Below, in pieces: positions 10,514-30,557 of a DNA stretch of 35,100 nucleotides (position 1 is its first letter; each line of letters starts with the position of its first letter). The notes under the pieces are model-generated. The model was not told the origin of the DNA. It was given only the letters and a program-made list of their open reading frames with translations, and made no database searches. Made by a program: the position numbers and the translations under genes. Location of the stretch: positions 1 to 35,100 of the forward strand of contig NZ_JAMXFD010000041.1 of assembly GCF_025370875.1 (NCBI RefSeq), written 5' to 3'. Source of the DNA: Laspinema palackyanum D2c. Lineage in GTDB: Bacteria; Cyanobacteriota; Cyanobacteriia; Cyanobacteriales; Laspinemataceae.

Positions 10514-13500
10514 ATGGCAGAAATTAGCGACCCGAACAATCCCCAGGCGAACCATCTTCCAGGATCCTCTATTCCCGGATTAGATGAAAGCGATCCCCTA
10601 GAATCCTCTCGAACTTTAGAGGAAGAGGGGATTTTTTTAGATTTATCCTTACTGCAAATCATCCAAGGCCAAGCTGGAGATGATACGATTATTGGTTCCC
10701 TCGCCGACGATACCATCGTTGGCAATGCCGGGAACGATACCCTTTATGGAAATGTAGGCAACGATAGCCTCCTGGGAAACCAAGACAACGACACGATCGC
10801 CGGTGGTCCCGGTAACGACATCATTCGCGGGGTCTCTGGCAACAACGTCCTCTACGGAGACCTCACCCGAGAGGGACTCTCCCTTGAAGAAGAATTTGGC
10901 AACGACATCATCTTTGGCGGCATCGGCGATGACCTAATTTTCGGCAACCAAGGCGATGATACCCTCGATGGAGAAGGGGGGACCGACACCATTTATGGCG
11001 GCCAAGGCAACGACCTCATCATCGGTCATGAGGGGAATGACCTCCTCTCCGGTGACGGTGGCAACGACCTCATCTATGGTGGTCTCAGCAACGATAACAT
11101 TGCGGGCGGTCTCGGCAGCGATACCCTCTACGGGGAAGAAGGGGATGAGATCCTCAATGGCAACGAAGGCAGCGACTTATTAGTAGGCGGTGCCGGGAAC
11201 GACATCCTCTACGGTGACGACCTCACTGCCGAAGTTTTGGCGGGCGGGAACGATGTCCTCTACGCCGGGGAAGGCAATGATACCGCCTACGGTGGCGTCG
11301 GCAACGACATCATTTTTGGCAATGAAGGCAATGACGTCATTTTTGGCAACAAAGGCGCTGACATCCTCTATGGCGGTCAAGGCGATGATACCGCCTACGG
11401 GGGTCAAGATAACGACCAACTGTTTGGGGACAAAGGAAATGATGTCCTCTTTGGCAATCTCGGCGATGACTTCGTAAATGGGGGTGAAGGCAATGACCTA
11501 CTCCTAGGCAACGAAGGGAACGATCTCCTCGACGGCGGTTCGGGAGACGATCTCATTTACGGCGGTCAAGATAACGATACCATTCGAGGCAGCGATGGAA
11601 ATGACCAGCTTTTTGGTGATAAAGGCAATGATGTCATTTTCGGTGGAGTCGGCAACAATACCCTCACCGGCGGCCAAGGGTCGGACCAATTTGTAATTTC
11701 CCCTGGATTAGGATTTCTGCAACAAACGCGAAACTTAATTACCGACTTCAACGATGGGCAAGATTTCCTCCTCTTAGCCGATCGCATCACCTTTGAAGAC
11801 CTCGACATCCGCGAGGAATTTGATGCCACCGGCACTCTCAATACCCTCATTCTCGATCGCCTCACCGGCACCGTTACCATTTTACAAAATGTCAGTGCCA
11901 GCGCCATTACCCGGGATGATTTCCTACCCCCACTCGCACCGCCACCGCCACCGCCACCGCCGGAGGCCGTGCCACTCCCAGCCATCCCCACCCCTCCGAT
12001 TGTCAATGTTCCCGTAATCCCGGGACCCCCAGCGCCACCCGAACCCGAACCCGAGGAGAGTGTCATTCAATTTAGCAATGCCACCTACCGAATTAATGAA
12101 AATGGTACTCCCGAAGCGATGCTAGTCACGGTGACTCGCGGCAATAGTAGCGAAGGGTTGATTACGGTCGATGTGGTTCTTCAAGGCAATCCGGGAACTG
12201 CAACAGCGGTAGATGATTATGGCAATATTTTCCCCGTTCCTATCCAGTTTGCAGAGGGAGATACCACCGCCAAACAGGTTACTATTCCCATTGTTAACGA
12301 TACCCTCGCCGAAGCTACGGAAACGATTAGCTTACAACTGGCCAATCTCACAGGTACGGCAATTTTAGGCAGCCAATCTACCGCGACGGTCGAAATTATC
12401 GATGATGATAATCCAGGAGAGTTAGAGTTTGTCATTCCAGCGGAAGGGAGTTTCCGAGTTAAAGAAGATGGAACCCTGGTCCGACAAGTCCAGGTCCGTC
12501 GAGTCAATGGCAGCAGCGGTGCCGTAGGCGCGGATATCACTCTGGCAGCGGGTTCAGCAAGTACAAATCCACCCGCCCAACCGGGAATTTTGGGAGAGGA
12601 TTTTGCGGCAGTTCCGGTTCGCGTCTCCTTTGCGGATGGGGAAACGGCAACTAAAACCATTACACTCCCACCTACGGCCATTTTACGCGGGACACCGCAA
12701 CTGGATGGTCTCAAAATCGTCAACTTATCCTTGACCAATCCCACAGGTGGGGTACAAGTCAGTACCACTCCAGCACCCCTGCAAATTGAAGATATTGATC
12801 AACTGGTTGTCAGTATTGAGGTGACTCCCCCGGGAAATGAGGCGTTTGAATCGGCCCAGGGGGACCTGCAAGCCCCGGCCACCCGAGAAGGGGCGTTTAC
12901 GATCGCCCTGCGAGATGCCAATGGTGCTCCAGTCAATGCTCCTGCCGGGGGTTTAACGGTTTCCTATCGGGTGGATACCACCCCACCGGCACAACCCACC
13001 GATCCACAAGCAGCAGTCGAGGGTCAAGACTACAATGCCTTCTTAAATAATGCCGCCTTCACCTTGGGGAGCAATACCGTCTTCATTCCCGAAGGAACTT
13101 CCACCGCTACCATTAACATCAATCCGACTGACGACAATTTGCCCGAAGGGAATGAATTCATTAAGGTCATCCTGAATGAAACGGCTGATTACAACATCGC
13201 CAGTGACAAAAAAGAAGGGCAAGTTCTCCTAATCGATAATGACTCACCGATTGTCCGCATCAGTCCAGCCACTGGACGGATTAAGGAAGGAGAAACCCCT
13301 CAGACTGTCTTGACCATCTCGCGAGAAGATAGTGCGGGTAATCCGATCACCTCGGGAGCTTTGACCGTCAATTATGGAAGTGGCGGGACCGCCACCAATG
13401 GTGTAGATTATGACCAGTTGACTGGGCAAGCCGTGATTCCAGATGGTCAATCCTCGGTCAACGTTACGGTTCGGGCTTTGGATGATAACAATGCAGAACC

Positions 13501-13936
13501 CGATGAAAGCGTCCGCCTAACCCTCCAAGGGTCCACGGATACGACCCAGGTTTATCAACTGAAAGAGGGACAAGACCAGAGTGTTGTTACTCTTGAAGAT
13601 AATGAGACTCCCCAAATCAGTGTAGTGGGACGGGCTGCCGATGTCTTGGCTGACCCTCCTACAGGTAACCAGTTCCAATTTATCCGGTTTGGCGATAAAG
13701 CTATCCCCTTGGCGGTGACTTATACTGTCGCCGGGACGGCTGTACCTGGTACGGACTATACGGCATTACCCCTCACCCTTAACTTTACGGCAGGACAAAG
13801 TTCGGTGTTGGTTCCGTTCACTCCTATTGACAATCCGAATGATGCCCTTGCCAAGGTGGTTGAGATTCAGTTAGTAGATGGAGCAGCTTACGATCTAGGG
13901 TTTGCTCCTCGGGGCAATTTGCTGTTCTTAAACTAA
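10514..13936 (+). CDS. RTX calcium-binding / Calx-beta repeat surface protein
   Basis: A 1140-residue acidic, repetitive protein with no recognised name. Residues 1-50 are a short acidic head without a signal peptide. Residues about 52-395 hold some 35 RTX nonapeptide units of the GGxGxDxxx type, which fold as a calcium-binding beta-roll. Then comes an RTX-end-like segment (about 396-470) with QFVI, LITDFNDGQDFLLLADR. A proline-rich linker (about 472-515) includes eight consecutive prolines. Four Calx-beta domains follow, starting near 516, 627, 760 and 915, each ending in an acidic DDDNP, DIDQ, DNDSP or DNETP motif. A fifth, shorter one runs to the end. Such proteins are usually exported by type I secretion and act in adhesion, gliding or the cell surface layer. 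No HlyB/HlyD-type transporter is nearby. Role inferred. Confidence 0.9.
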   Translation: MAEISDPNNPQANHLPGSSIPGLDESDPLESSRTLEEEGIFLDLSLLQIIQGQAGDDTIIGSLADDTIVGNAGNDTLYGNVGNDSLLGNQDNDTIAGGPGNDIIRGVSGNNVLYGDLTREGLSLEEEFGNDIIFGGIGDDLIFGNQGDDTLDGEGGTDTIYGGQGNDLIIGHEGNDLLSGDGGNDLIYGGLSNDNIAGGLGSDTLYGEEGDEILNGNEGSDLLVGGAGNDILYGDDLTAEVLAGGNDVLYAGEGNDTAYGGVGNDIIFGNEGNDVIFGNKGADILYGGQGDDTAYGGQDNDQLFGDKGNDVLFGNLGDDFVNGGEGNDLLLGNEGNDLLDGGSGDDLIYGGQDNDTIRGSDGNDQLFGDKGNDVIFGGVGNNTLTGGQGSDQFVISPGLGFLQQTRNLITDFNDGQDFLLLADRITFEDLDIREEFDATGTLNTLILDRLTGTVTILQNVSASAITRDDFLPPLAPPPPPPPPEAVPLPAIPTPPIVNVPVIPGPPAPPEPEPEESVIQFSNATYRINENGTPEAMLVTVTRGNSSEGLITVDVVLQGNPGTATAVDDYGNIFPVPIQFAEGDTTAKQVTIPIVNDTLAEATETISLQLANLTGTAILGSQSTATVEIIDDDNPGELEFVIPAEGSFRVKEDGTLVRQVQVRRVNGSSGAVGADITLAAGSASTNPPAQPGILGEDFAAVPVRVSFADGETATKTITLPPTAILRGTPQLDGLKIVNLSLTNPTGGVQVSTTPAPLQIEDIDQLVVSIEVTPPGNEAFESAQGDLQAPATREGAFTIALRDANGAPVNAPAGGLTVSYRVDTTPPAQPTDPQAAVEGQDYNAFLNNAAFTLGSNTVFIPEGTSTATININPTDDNLPEGNEFIKVILNETADYNIASDKKEGQVLLIDNDSPIVRISPATGRIKEGETPQTVLTISREDSAGNPITSGALTVNYGSGGTATNGVDYDQLTGQAVIPDGQSSVNVTVRALDDNNAEPDESVRLTLQGSTDTTQVYQLKEGQDQSVVTLEDNETPQISVVGRAADVLADPPTGNQFQFIRFGDKAIPLAVTYTVAGTAVPGTDYTALPLTLNFTAGQSSVLVPFTPIDNPNDALAKVVEIQLVDGAAYDLGFAPRGNLLFLN
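10670..11690. repeat. Coding repeats of the RTX region
   Basis: About 27-bp degenerate coding units of the pattern ggcaacgacatcctctacgg repeat through this stretch and encode the RTX nonapeptides. The codons vary between units, so the array is old rather than freshly expanded. It generates many long antisense and shifted frames with no meaning. Confidence 0.85.
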
Positions 13937-21079: not shown

Positions 21080-21946
21080 TTATCCGCGTAAATGCTGACG
21101 CAGTGCTTGGCCCATGATATCAACGGGGACCGGGCGATCGAGCCAAATTTGCAAGGCGGCAGCCCCTTGTTGGACTAACATTTCTGACCCATCGATCGCC
21201 AACAAGCCCAGTGCCTGGGCCTGTCGCAAAAATTCCGTCGGACTGGGGGTGTAGATCAAATCATAGGCGATCGCCCCTTGGGGAAGGGTGGCCAAAAGCT
21301 CGGGGGCCACCGGCGAGTGACCCACATCGGGCGACATTCCCACCGGGGTGGAGTTGACCAGTAATCCCGCTTGGGGTATTAGTTGTGGGAGTTCTGACCA
21401 GTCATGGACCGAGAGATTCACCGGCCAAGGAGAATCCTGCCAACTGGTTTGAAATGCCTGTAATTTGTCCAAATTGCGGCCCACCACACAGATTTTTGCA
21501 CAGCCTAACTGGGCTAAACCGGCCACCACAGCCCGCGCTGCACCCCCGCACCCTAAAATAACGGCGAGGGTTTGATGCCAGGGGCGATCGCAACCTTTTA
21601 GGGGGGCGAGAAATCCTTCCACATCGGTATTGGTGCCTGCCCAGCCCGTGGGAGTCCGCCAGACGGTATTCACTGCGCCGACTGCCTGAGCAACGGGAGA
21701 AATCTCCGATAATAGAGGCATAATGGCTTGTTTGTGAGGGATGGTAATGCTAAATCCGCGCACCCCGATGGCAGCGAAACCGGCAATGGCGGTGGGTAAA
21801 TCCGAGGGGGCGATAGGCCAAGGCAGATAGACAAAATCTAGGCCCATTTCAGCGATCGCGGCATTGTGCATCACCGGGGAAAGGGAATGCTTCACTGGAT
21901 AGCCAATGACACCGAGTAATTGAGTTGTTCCTGTAATAGTTGGCAT
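21080..21946 (-). CDS. aroE: Shikimate dehydrogenase (NADP+)
   Basis: A 288-residue enzyme reducing 3-dehydroshikimate to shikimate in aromatic amino acid synthesis. The shikimate-binding motif GYPVKHSLSPVMHN (15-28), catalytic K72 in ITIPHK, N93, D108 in TNTDVEGF, the NADP-binding GCGGAARAV (132-140), NSTPVGM and the C-terminal DGSEMLVQQGAAALQ are all present. Length is normal. It starts at the ATG at 21946. The gene lies upstream of the exported protein on the same strand with about 160 bp between them, so co-transcription is possible but not shown. Confidence 0.97.
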   Translation of the reverse strand: MPTITGTTQLLGVIGYPVKHSLSPVMHNAAIAEMGLDFVYLPWPIAPSDLPTAIAGFAAIGVRGFSITIPHKQAIMPLLSEISPVAQAVGAVNTVWRTPTGWAGTNTDVEGFLAPLKGCDRPWHQTLAVILGCGGAARAVVAGLAQLGCAKICVVGRNLDKLQAFQTSWQDSPWPVNLSVHDWSELPQLIPQAGLLVNSTPVGMSPDVGHSPVAPELLATLPQGAIAYDLIYTPSPTEFLRQAQALGLLAIDGSEMLVQQGAAALQIWLDRPVPVDIMGQALRQHLRG

Positions 21947-22262
21947 GGGCTAAAAAAGCGGATGCTGACATCTGTTCGTGAATACGGTTAGAGTAGGGTT
22001 GTAACTACTGTCCCGCCCCTTGATTTTATGTCACAATTTTGAATAAGAACCGTACAGAAAGGGCGATCGGGTCAGAGTTCTCAAGGGCTGGCTATTTGTA
22101 AAACACGCAACATCAGGGGATTTTACCGAAACATTAGGGTTGTTGAGGTTAATCGGTGATTTGTACATAGACAACCCTCTGCTGTCATACCCGCTTCCAG
22201 CCCCAGGCATTGATGGTTGAGGTTGGCGGCGCTATTTTGCATTAGTGGACTAGAATTTTATC
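21947..22262. other. Divergent region between aroE and the BLUF cyclase
   Basis: 316 bp with one gcgatcgg HIP1-like site. I see no clear promoter, CRP-type or NtcA-type site, or RNA element. Confidence 0.5.
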
Positions 22263-23363
22263 ATGAAAAGACTCACCTATATTAGTAAATTTTCCCGCAC
22301 CCTCTGCGCTGAGGAAATTGAGGCGATCGGTCGCGTATCCGGTCAAAAAAATCAACAAGCCAATGTGACCGGAGTATTGCTCTGTCTGGACGGGATATTT
22401 TTTCAAATCCTAGAAGGCGAAGCGGAGAAAATTGACCGAATTTATGAACGAATTCTGGCGGATGATCGTCATACGGATATTCTTTGCTTAAAATCTGAAG
22501 GGGAAGTGGGAGAAAGAATGTTTCCGGATTGGTCCATGCAAACGATTAATTTGGATGAAAATACCGATTTGTTAATTGGACCCATTAAGGTATTATTGCA
22601 GACTCTCACTGAATCCCATCGGGTGTTAGAGAAATATACCCAACCCAGTATTTTTAAAATTATTAGTCAAGGCACTAATCCCCTCACAATTCGGCCCAAA
22701 GCGGTAGAAAAAATTGTATTTTTCAGCGATATTGTTTCTTTTTCTACCTTTGCGGAGAAACTACCCGTAGAAGAAGTGGTTTCCGTCGTGAATAGTTATT
22801 TTTCAATTTGTACGGCAGTGATTACTCAGCACCGAGGAGAGGTCACTAAATTTATTGGGGATTGCGTGATGGCTTATTTTGATGGGGATTGCGCTGATGA
22901 CGCCATCCAAGCGAGTTTAGATATCTTGACTGAACTAGAAATTTTACGAAATACTTCCCCTGAAGGGAGTCCGTTGCGGGTGCTCTACAGTGGGATTGGT
23001 TTAGCCAAGGGGAAAGTGATTGAGGGAAATATTGGTTCGGAAGTGAAAAAGGATTATACTATATTAGGGGATGCAGTGAATGTAGCGGCTCGCTTGGAAG
23101 CCTTAACCCGCAAGTTATCCCAAGCCTTAGTTTTTTCCGGTGAAGTCAAAAAGAGTACGGCGAAATCGTGGGATTTTATCTGGCTAGCAGATTCCGCATT
23201 GAAAGGGAAATCGGAATCGATTGAGATTTATTCAATTGATAATGAAATGACGCGCAAATCCAGCGGTGGATTGGAAATTGCTCGGAATATTGGGCATTAT
23301 TTGGAACGAGTGGGCGATCGCCAACCCAGTCAGATTTTTGGGGTGACCAGTTTGCCCCTCTAA
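22263..23363 (+). CDS. Blue-light-activated adenylate cyclase (BLUF + class III cyclase), OaPAC type
   Basis: A 366-residue flavin photoreceptor enzyme that makes cAMP from ATP under blue light. The BLUF domain (about 1-95) has the flavin residues Y6, N30, Q48, W90 and M92. A linker helix follows with Y125. The class III cyclase domain (about 145-330) has metal-binding D156 and D200, purine-selecting K196 (in EVTKFIGD) and T266 (in DYTILGD), and the transition-state pair N273/R277. Length, domain order and nearly all of the sequence agree with my memory of OaPAC from Oscillatoria acuminata. Cyanobacterial cAMP controls motility and respiration, so blue light could feed into this. It starts at the ATG at 22263 with a weak ribosome binding site and stands alone. 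Confidence 0.95.
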   Translation: MKRLTYISKFSRTLCAEEIEAIGRVSGQKNQQANVTGVLLCLDGIFFQILEGEAEKIDRIYERILADDRHTDILCLKSEGEVGERMFPDWSMQTINLDENTDLLIGPIKVLLQTLTESHRVLEKYTQPSIFKIISQGTNPLTIRPKAVEKIVFFSDIVSFSTFAEKLPVEEVVSVVNSYFSICTAVITQHRGEVTKFIGDCVMAYFDGDCADDAIQASLDILTELEILRNTSPEGSPLRVLYSGIGLAKGKVIEGNIGSEVKKDYTILGDAVNVAARLEALTRKLSQALVFSGEVKKSTAKSWDFIWLADSALKGKSESIEIYSIDNEMTRKSSGGLEIARNIGHYLERVGDRQPSQIFGVTSLPL

Positions 23364-25525: not shown

Positions 25526-26920
25526 TTAAACGGGACAACCTTGAATCTCTGGATCTTCGTCAAAACTCATCAAAGAAAGAGACTCTGGGTTTTCTTGGAG
25601 CATTTTTCCGAGTAAATATCCGGAAATTGTCCAAGTTTGATACCGCCTTGCCTCTTTGCCAATTAAGCGACCATTTTTGCCATCATAATATTCCGGCCAT
25701 TCATCTGCAATGAGGCGATCGCCAGCCAAATCTAGGGCTTTCTGCCCTAATTCCGGGCGTCCCATTTTCTGAAATGCGGCCACCAGAGGCCAAATTAAAA
25801 CCGGCCAACTTCCCCCATTATGATAAGACCAAGGATAATTTTTGGGGTCAGATCCAGTCACAATCTCCCATTCCAGATTTTCAACCGCTGGAAAAACAAT
25901 CTGGATCGGCATTCGTCCTACCAAATCTGACCAGCGTTCTTCAATCAGTTGAATAATCCCTTGAGATTCTTCTTCCGATGACAACGACCCTAAAACTGCC
26001 AATAAATTGCCCAAACTGAAAAAGCGAAAATCGATCCGACCCGGACCCAAATTTCCCGCTAAATATCCTCCTCGGTCCGGCATCCATAAGGTCACCCAGT
26101 GAGGAATTGACCGGGGATAAATATTAAACTTATTTGCCACATTTTCTCCAAATTGATTGCTTTCAAATCGATGGATTTCGTTTAATTGCTTTAAGTCGAG
26201 CCAATAATATTCTCGAATGTGGTATCGTAAAGAGCCTAAGCGGCTATTAATCGCTTGGAGATAGGAACTGTCCTCTTCATTGTCGGACCGCAGTAACTCC
26301 CGGGCCGATCGCAAGGCCATATAAAACAGGGATTGGATTTCCAAAGGATGACCATATACCCCCATCCGGCGGTCAATCATAAATGAACCATCGGGAACTA
26401 ACAGAGTCGGAAACATCTCGAACCGAGACCGTAAACACAACTCTAAAATGAGTTTAATACCTTCTTGAAATTCCGGTTGATGGGCGAAGGACATATCCCC
26501 AGTTTTCTTAACATAAGCGCGGAGTAAAAACAACCACCAAAAGCCCGAATCAACCGGGGGAACTCGACCGATCGCATGGTTGCCAAAATCCCCCAACAAT
26601 TCTTCTTTTCCATCTTCATAGATGACTTTATAGCTGGCAGGCATTAAGCCTGGACCCGGTTCAAAGCAGTCCATTCTTTTCTCATGTTTCTGCAAGGCTA
26701 AGGTATGAATGAGGAAATTTTTGACAATCTCTGTTTTTCCTTTAATTAAAAATATCAAAGCCCCAGAAATAAAATCTCGGATAAAGCACTGATCGTAGTT
26801 GAGTGCATCTAAGGCTGGATCATGGGCAGCTACGGTCCCCGATGGTTCCCCCTGATAACAGAAAATAGCATTCTCTAAGAGGGCATAAGCATCGGCTGGA
26901 TTAATTTCTTTTCTTTTCAT
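25526..26920 (-). CDS. GH100 alkaline/neutral invertase
   Basis: A 464-residue cytoplasmic enzyme that hydrolyses sucrose to glucose and fructose. The family pattern is plain: [10 protein letters not shown] near the start, [51 protein letters not shown] and [18 protein letters not shown]. By comparison with Anabaena InvA, D183 (in MIDRR) and E410 (in WPEYYD) are the likely acid/base and nucleophile. The frame extends to a TTG at 26947. The ATG at 26920 ([10 protein letters not shown]) gives the family's usual start and length. It complements sucrose synthase in sucrose turnover, important under salt stress. It converges with the SGNH gene. Confidence 0.93.
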
Positions 26921-27409
26921 TGATTTAATTGATTCAACAGCAAACAAGTCGCCGGGACAGGTGGATTGTCAACCTTGAAGATAATCAATCCGCTGATTAC
27001 CCGTCGATTGTCCATAGACTTGGTATTCAAAAATAGAAGTGGGGACAGTTAGGCAAGTGCTGGCCTAACGCGCTACTATTCCCCGAGGATTTATTGGGTT
27101 TATCTTATCATAATTTTGTCCGATTGTGTTAGAGATTCGGCGTTAAATCTGAAGTGTGAATGTTGAGATGCGCTCTCCAAATCCTGATTTCAACCGAATC
27201 TCTCCCTAGGGTATCTTGTCAAAAGGGGCGATCGCCTGTTTGATGTAGGGCTGGGTACTCTCCCAGAAGTGCAATAGGTGCAATCTACAATTTTTGATGA
27301 AATCTCCCGCCCAAAAACCTTCTGTCACCCATCCCAACTGACGCGGTATGCTAAAACGAAATCTAAACAATCACCCATCATTACAGAAAACTTCATTTAT
27401 CGTGTCGTC
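26921..27409. other. Divergent region between the invertase and antiporter genes
   Basis: About 490 bp. It holds one HIP1 site (near 27229) and no RNA gene or strong hairpin that I can support. An in-frame GTG at 27278 would extend the antiporter by 44 polar residues, which is unlike the family and is not accepted. Confidence 0.5.
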
Positions 27410-29073: not shown

Positions 29074-30255
29074 CTACTGTCGATACACCGGGAGGGTAAA
29101 GTGAAAAGCACTCCCTTTATTGCAAGAAGAATCCACCCAAATTTCCCCACAATTTGCTCTAATTAAGCGCTTACATAAACTTAAACCGATTCCATAACCA
29201 TCTTTTTGTTCATCGCGCTTGAGCCGAAACTTATCCTCAAAAATATGATCCTGATTTTCTTCGGGAATCCCTGGACCCGTGTCAATGACGCTAACTTGAA
29301 CCTTTTGTGTCGTGCGGTGCAAGATACAAACTTCAATTTGTCCGCCTTGGGGAGTGTACTTAATGGCATTATCCAAAAGATTTACAATCACCTGGCGGAC
29401 CCGTTCTCCATCAGCATAAACCGAGGGTAAATCATTGGGAATGTCAGTTTTGAGGGTATGGGATTTCGCTAATAAGCGGTCTTTAAAATTGTCCAGAATG
29501 TTCAACGTCAGGGTTTTGAGGTTGAGTTTCTTGGGATGAATGTGAAACTCGGCACTATTTGTGCTATGAGCAGCAACGAGGATATCTGAGATCATGCGAT
29601 CGATCAGGCGGGTTTGAGTCCGCGCATGGTAAATTAATCGCGATCGCAGCGCGGATACCGCCTCGGGATTGAGAGATTTTTCCGGTTTGTAAGTGATTTC
29701 TAGGGTTTCTAAAGCCAGAGAAGCTGCTGTCAGAGGATTTCGCAACTCATGGGCTAACATGGCAATCAGGCGGTCCTTAAAATGGACTTGGTCCAGCAGT
29801 TCTTCTTTTTCCTGCTTCAGGCGAAAAATTTCATCGGAGAGTTCCATCAGTTCAGCCGAATGTGCCAGTTCAGAAGAGATGGGTTTCCTGGGATAATGCC
29901 CGATCGCCTCGGATGATGCCTGCTTGCTGAGATACTCTTCCACGGACTTTTGCCAGCGATCCCACCACTTATCCAGTTCTCCGACTAAATTACTACCGGC
30001 AAGAACTTGTCGGGGGCCCGGGTGGAGTTTAATCAAAGCCGGAGTCGCTACGAGTTTAAACTGTTCAGCCAGATAAGGCTGTTCGCTAACATCGATAATC
30101 TCCAAGTCAAAGGGGATACCTGTCCGCCGTTTCTGAAAATAACTGCGGATTTTCCGAATTTGTTCACTGGATCTGGGACGCCTATCAACAAATAGGACAA
30201 GCTGTAAAGGTGCTTCATCGTTCTGATGCATGGTTTTTTCCGGAACTGCCCTCAT
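29074..30255 (-). CDS. sasA: Adaptive-response sensory histidine kinase SasA
   Basis: A 393-residue clock output kinase. The N-terminal KaiB-like thioredoxin domain (about 15-110) includes LQLVLFVDRRPRSSEQIRKIRSYF and EQPYLAEQFKLVATPALIKLHPGPR, and docks on KaiC. A linker follows, then the dimerisation helix with phosphorylated H169 in MLAHELRNPLT, and the HATPase domain with N, G1 (DTGPGIPEE) and G2 (GYGIGLSL) boxes. SasA phosphorylates RpaA to time gene expression. The frame starts at 30297, but aagggg before the internal ATG at 30255 and the family's usual N-terminus favour 30255. It has no membrane segment. kai genes are not in this window. Confidence 0.94.
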   Translation of the reverse strand: MRAVPEKTMHQNDEAPLQLVLFVDRRPRSSEQIRKIRSYFQKRRTGIPFDLEIIDVSEQPYLAEQFKLVATPALIKLHPGPRQVLAGSNLVGELDKWWDRWQKSVEEYLSKQASSEAIGHYPRKPISSELAHSAELMELSDEIFRLKQEKEELLDQVHFKDRLIAMLAHELRNPLTAASLALETLEITYKPEKSLNPEAVSALRSRLIYHARTQTRLIDRMISDILVAAHSTNSAEFHIHPKKLNLKTLTLNILDNFKDRLLAKSHTLKTDIPNDLPSVYADGERVRQVIVNLLDNAIKYTPQGGQIEVCILHRTTQKVQVSVIDTGPGIPEENQDHIFEDKFRLKRDEQKDGYGIGLSLCKRLIRANCGEIWVDSSCNKGSAFHFTLPVYRQ

Positions 30256-30557
30256 GCAATCCCCTTGCGGCAATGCGGCTAAAAAAGTAACACTCATTTT
30301 GAGCTTGAGACAAGTGACTCGATCGCCCTAGTGGTTCTTTTGTTTTTCTTTATATTTATAAATTATCCTGTTTATTGTCGATTCGTGAAAGAGTAAAAAG
30401 GATTCCACTCTCATCCCGACTTGACTGCCCAGAAGGAAAAAAGCTAGGGCCTCTGGACTGGTCTAAACCCACCCAATGGAACCTCAACTTTCAACCTGTT
30501 GAGGCAGCAGAACGGTAGTTGTCAAACCTTAACATTTTCTTAAGACTTAAGCGAGGA
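30256..30557. other. Divergent region between sasA and the DUF2079 gene
   Basis: About 300 bp with an AT-rich core (30349-30370, tatatttataaattatcc). Read on the minus strand, a tcgaca followed 15 nt later by tataaa is a weak sasA promoter candidate. No RNA gene is seen. Confidence 0.4.

Follow-up and report, generated by a model that had tools for sequence, protein, structure and literature searches.

The question raised by this locus is whether the gene at positions 22263 to 23363 (+) encodes a true counterpart of OaPAC, the photoactivated adenylate cyclase (PAC) of Oscillatoria acuminata, and whether its natural substitutions touch the light switch. The window, that is, the whole stretch of 35,100 nucleotides from Laspinema palackyanum D2c that was analyzed, holds the gene as an uninterrupted frame of 366 codons and a stop, and the single antisense frame translated over the same positions contained many stops. 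In Pfam searches, the BLUF domain (PF04940), a flavin-binding blue-light sensor, covered residues 1 to 93 (22263 to 22541, +) with 93.1 bits against a cut-off of 25 (E 1.2e-26), and the Guanylate_cyc domain (PF00211) covered residues 152 to 325 (22716 to 23237, +) with 59.7 bits against a cut-off of 21.9 (E 3.7e-16). The score above cut-off and the flavin-site residues Y6, N30, and Q48, together with D67, W90, and M92, identify the protein as a BLUF photoreceptor. The cyclase part contained the metal Asp residues D156 and D200, the Asn/Arg pair N273/R277, and the Lys/Thr pair K196/T266, in addition to D270 and E279, which places it among the class III cyclases. The Asn/Arg pair has a recognized role in class III cyclases, and the Lys/Thr pair of class III adenylate cyclases takes part in substrate choice. 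The equivalents of K196 and T266 in bPAC, K197 and T267, have been mutated (PMC8522238). The initial annotation had described a 366-residue BLUF-adenylate cyclase with all flavin and catalytic residues in place; the translation and the Pfam domains confirmed the former, and the comparison with OaPAC and the alignment of 33 PACs confirmed the latter.

A phmmer search of PDB sequences returned OaPAC entries as the top matches (5x4u, E 5.2e-219, residues 1 to 366 on 1 to 366), with bPAC next. Low identity to OaPAC had been named in the initial annotation as grounds for abandoning its assignment; the two proteins aligned over the full length without a gap, and 332 of 366 residues were the same (90.7% identity, counted directly on the phmmer row). 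The 34 residues that differ agree with the few dozen differences it had given. Up to residue 142, the substitutions from OaPAC to the window protein were P13T, S15C, G16A, D17E, I25V, S27G, E68D, V80G, Q83G, F103L, R106G, I121V, and N142T. From residue 182 on, they were V182I, I186V, R189Q, Q190H, G191R, Q213D, M223T, S231T, A232S, L261V, R263K, and Q284K, followed by S293G, N297K, A299T, T300A, N304D, T309A, E312A, D321E, and K362T. Changes had been placed at residues 13 to 17, 80 to 83, and 187 to 191, which was nearly exact: residues 13, 15, 16, and 17, residues 80 and 83, and residues 189, 190, and 191 differed, as did residue 186. The sites at 13 to 17, 80 to 83, and 189 to 191 are variable among related cyclases, with residue 191 a partial exception, and F103L and R106G, located in the coupling helix between sensor and enzyme, were missing from that list. 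Of 23 listed sites (flavin, coupling, catalytic, and others), D321 was the sole one changed from OaPAC; it belongs to a surface site at which calcium was modelled in OaPAC crystals (PMC11533990). Overall, the window protein resembled OaPAC (PDB 4yus, 5x4u, 9f1w) in its domains, flavin and catalytic residues, tail, and gene neighbors but differed from it in F103L and R106G (helix alpha3), G191R (cyclase), D321E (modelled-calcium surface site), and K362T (inhibitory tail). Six of its residues (C15, A16, E17, G27, V186, and T299) were unique among the eight genus members, and the other 28 of the 34 were common to at least one other member. At nine of the 34 sites (16, 103, 121, 142, 182, 213, 231, 293, and 309), it was OaPAC itself that departed from the rest of the genus.

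A genome of the same genus (G005) encoded a protein that matched OaPAC at every one of its 366 residues, and this gene sat at the syntenic locus (L059). In the tree, the eight genus proteins formed one clade (support 100/100), within which the window protein clustered with those of L. palackyanum D2a and L. olomoucense D3b (100/98) and OaPAC with three other genus members (84/93). A shikimate dehydrogenase gene, divergent from the cyclase gene (21080 to 21946, -; Pfam), lay beside it in all seven other genus members (L002 to L007 and L059). The GDSL hydrolase gene was found downstream in all six genus species whose fetched stretch reached that far, L005 ending before it. Further downstream, the sodium/proton exchanger gene was present in L002, L003, L004, and L059, and L007 gave only a 48-residue match to the exchanger. 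The BLUF search matched once in the whole genome of the window and once in each of the 14 family genomes searched, its own included. Because a same-genus genome encodes exactly OaPAC, the neighborhood is shared, and the gene is the sole BLUF gene of its genome, it is the vertically inherited OaPAC orthologue in another Laspinema-group cyanobacterium. The same locus, the same clade, and the full-length match place it in the OaPAC orthologue group, and the orthology proposed at the outset is supported by sequence, tree, and synteny. No paper in the searched library joined "Laspinema" with "cyclase." An alkaline/neutral invertase gene (GH100, Pfam; 25526 to 26947, -) lay between the GDSL hydrolase and exchanger genes, as it did in L002, L004, and L059; an invertase match was not found at that place in L003 and L007.

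Outside the genus, 12 loci were compared, and a shikimate dehydrogenase gene stood divergently upstream, within about 1.7 kb, in nine of them, including Planktothricoides and Argonema; L008 and L065, both counted among the nine, represent a single region of Oscillatoria sp. SIO1A7. The gene was not found at the two Pseudanabaena loci (L010 and L012) or the Thiomargarita locus (L024) among these 12. In an even draw across the phylum, 5 of 386 genomes gave a match with an E value of 1e-60 or lower, among them the window's own and one family member; thus, the gene is characteristic of a small number of lineages and is not widespread in cyanobacteria. The PACs of Planktothricoides, Argonema, Oscillatoria sp. 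SIO1A7, and Pseudanabaena had the same layout with 54 to 67% identity (tblastn) but were without the OaPAC-type tail and carried Q, K, or S at residue 106. Similarly, bPAC of Beggiatoa (PDB 5m27, 5mbj) shared the layout of BLUF, alpha3, and class III cyclase, with 202 of 347 aligned residues identical, but had Gln at 106 and Gly at 191. A distant PAC in a Candidatus Omnitrophota MAG (L027:1808-2866) carried Tyr at OaPAC F197 and Ser at R277, the counterparts of bPAC F198 and R278. The dark activity of bPAC was lowered by engineered F198Y and R278A (PMC8522238), and the L027 protein may be naturally low in dark activity or else inactive. Separately, a genome of the window's class contained two PAC genes in the same orientation, separated by about 350 bases (L087 and L089; G380:C1:2838495-2839544 and 2839894-2840952), a natural tandem pair, possibly with differing sensitivities.

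The alignment of 33 PACs comprised 32 genome proteins from loci L001 to L043 and bPAC. It left out L044 to L058, where the cyclase part alone matched, the cut-short L025, and the later-found L086 to L089, and identical copies were entered once. Residues Y6, N30, Q48, D67, W90, M92, Y125, D156, K196, D200, N256, T266, D270, N273, and E279 were invariant in all 33 sequences. Other named sites were less constant (L111, F197, and R277 in 32 sequences each, L115 in 25, E348 in 21, R63 in 14, and K29 in 8), and the window protein had the OaPAC residue at every one of them. The roles in OaPAC of Y6, K29, N30, Q48, R63, D67, M92, D156, D200, D270, N273, and E279 are described in PMC11533990, and those of the coupling residues L111, L115, Y125, and N256, all present in the window protein, in PMC10634658. 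The window protein is one of seven natural variants at 5 to 11% sequence distance from the much-studied optogenetic enzyme OaPAC, and this set sorts the general features of OaPAC (flavin site, Y125, and N256) from those found in OaPAC alone (F103) or in part of the genus (R106).

The pairwise dN/dS (Nei-Gojobori, own script) was 0.12 against OaPAC and 0.09 to 0.15 against the six other genus members, values that indicate purifying selection on the gene. Two apparent blocks near its 3' end were considered and dropped. In codons 341 to 360, 3 of 20 degenerate codons varied synonymously versus 170 of 358 overall. A hidden overlapping signal was nevertheless rejected on a shuffle comparison of run length: the longest unvaried run in the gene was just 8 and was reached in 63% of shuffles. 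Residues 322 to 350, 29 residues without an amino-acid change in the eight species, were likewise within chance, since a run of 28 was reached in 13% of shuffles and one of 30 in 8%.

Taken with the identity to OaPAC, we regard it as highly probable that the gene is a vertically inherited OaPAC orthologue encoding a homodimeric, blue-light-activated adenylate cyclase. The dimer, the light activation, and the signal path are drawn by analogy with OaPAC, and for light activation the analogy is strong at this identity. Blue light would be absorbed by the BLUF flavin, with Y6 donating an electron and a proton, as in OaPAC (PMC11533990). The hydrogen-bond network of Q48, W90, and M92 would then rearrange, and helix alpha3 would turn within milliseconds, as described for OaPAC in PMC10634658. 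The cyclase domains of the dimer would thereby shift into the active arrangement and convert ATP to cAMP. The signal-path residues named for OaPAC were present in the window protein, with the exception of Arg106.

R106G is the single change among the 34 on the proposed signal path, and of all the substitutions it has the strongest prior case for an effect, ahead of the sites named in the initial annotation. Codon 106 (22578 to 22580, +), in the coupling helix alpha3, reads GGA for Gly and is one base apart from the CGA for Arg in OaPAC. PMC10634658 relays from an earlier paper the suggestion that movement of Trp90 alters hydrogen bonding with neighbors such as Arg-106 of the partner's alpha3, together with the reported loss of activity when Trp90 is changed to Ala. 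The searched library held no paper joining "OaPAC" with "R106"; the spelling "Arg-106" does occur in PMC10634658. These points raise the possibility of a functionally shifted variant, in which the OaPAC switch exists naturally in two forms within the genus, one with R106 and one with G106. The latter form, represented by the window gene and three others, would relay the motion of Trp90 to alpha3 with no arginine contact across the dimer, and its dark rate or dynamic range would be measurably different. We put this forward tentatively, and a departure of more than about twofold from OaPAC in dark activity, lit-state lifetime, or dynamic range seems rather unlikely. Gly106 occurred in 4 of the 33 PACs, namely, the window protein and three of the seven other genus members, and these four alone were seen without a side chain at the position; the adjoining P107 was present in all 33, and F103L is a near neighbor on this helix. 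All of this favors a shifted switch. However, other residues are more common at this site: column 106 contained R in 4 sequences, G in 4, Q in 19, K in 4, S in 1, and H in 1, and Gln was the residue of most nongenus PACs, including bPAC. Arg106 was restricted to OaPAC and three genus relatives and was found in none of the 25 sequences from outside the genus; because other genus members also have Gly106, Arg106 does not define the OaPAC orthologue group. Since bPAC, with Gln at 106, is strongly light-activated (PMC8522238), a general requirement for Arg106 is unlikely. The loss of Arg106 would be expected to have at most a quantitative effect. In addition, selection on helix alpha3 was not relaxed (pN/pS 0.083 for residues 97 to 126 across the eight genus members). 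Codon 103 (22569 to 22571, +) reads TTG for Leu, and Phe103 was found in OaPAC and in none of the other 32 sequences; Leu103 is therefore the common genus state, a further point against a shifted variant. If the two forms do differ, the R106 and G106 genes would provide a naturally available test of the Trp90-Arg106 step proposed for BLUF signaling.

The other change of note is G191R, and with it comes the reading that the gene is a decayed or inactive copy that has lost its light switch. Codon 191 (22833 to 22835, +) reads CGA for Arg, and this replaces a glycine that was invariant in the 24 aligned nongenus genome PACs and bPAC and was present in five of the eight genus members, OaPAC among them. 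However, Arg191 is common to three species, the frame has no stops, the flavin and catalytic residues are present, and dN/dS is near 0.1. At the matching place in further class III cyclases encoded by this genome, we read D, D, H, K, G, G, Q, H, K, N, S, N, and N (13 of 20 loci, the other 7 being off the motif pattern; the 20 stretches represent 21 of 30 Guanylate_cyc matches), and so the fold tolerates change there. Decay is thus very improbable. Either Arg106 to Gly or Gly191 to Arg could alter coupling or activity, and the gene is best described as an ordinary orthologue of a known kind plus one neat natural test. The gain is modest and consists of natural variants that isolate Arg106, Phe103, and the tail.

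As an OaPAC orthologue, the window protein also kept the C-terminal tail. According to PMC6937261, the last nine residues of OaPAC lower its photoactivity, mutants lacking nine or more gave 30 to 60 times the wild-type signal at one light level, and bPAC has three residues after the last shared Glu versus 18 in OaPAC. The counterpart in the window protein (23334 to 23360, +) was identical to OaPAC in eight of nine residues, with K362T as the exception. The tail was present in all eight genus members, in which changes from residue 351 on occurred only at 351, 353, 354, 361, and 362, and an OaPAC-type tail in matching form was found in none of the compared sequences from outside the genus. The tail is therefore native to the genus, and the inhibitory element is a genus-wide feature of the eight members compared and not an oddity of one strain. 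Special conservation of the tail was considered and was unsupported: the last nine residues had a pN of 0.058 and a pN/pS of 0.205, compared with 0.042 and 0.117 for the cyclase domain, so that the tail has been retained, but with more change than the cyclase domain shows. Since this brake on OaPAC persists in the window protein, low cyclase activity of the OaPAC kind is expected there by analogy.

The AlphaFold model was used for the fold search only. Foldseek with this model listed OaPAC entries first and bPAC next. The model had a pTM of 0.60, pLDDT under 50 at residues 104 to 125 (alpha3), and an rmsd of about 15 A when superposed full-chain on OaPAC; given this weakness at alpha3 and in the domain orientation, it gives no evidence for or against the positions assigned to the substituted residues.

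The shared upstream region of the cyclase and shikimate dehydrogenase genes contained a 25-bp block (22020 to 22044, +) that was identical in all eight genus members, and a 64-base query holding it gave no comparable match in the seven nongenus genomes searched. The block may serve either gene. The promoter and terminator scan was uninformative, with 8 and 4 sites versus 3.9 and 2.9 expected in shuffles, and neither RNA families above the gathering score nor tRNA genes were detected in the window. The neighbors of the cyclase gene gave no hint of the output served by cAMP. The genome had 30 Guanylate_cyc matches and 13 cNMP-binding matches, 11 of the latter above the cut-off, so that cAMP produced under blue light probably feeds into a crowded signaling network. 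Elsewhere in the window, positions 10514 to 13936 encoded a 1140-residue protein with 14 RTX calcium-binding repeat and 2 Calx-beta stretches (Pfam). Positions 29074 to 30297 (-) encoded a histidine kinase with an N-terminal KaiB domain (Pfam), the domain arrangement known from the clock output kinase SasA.
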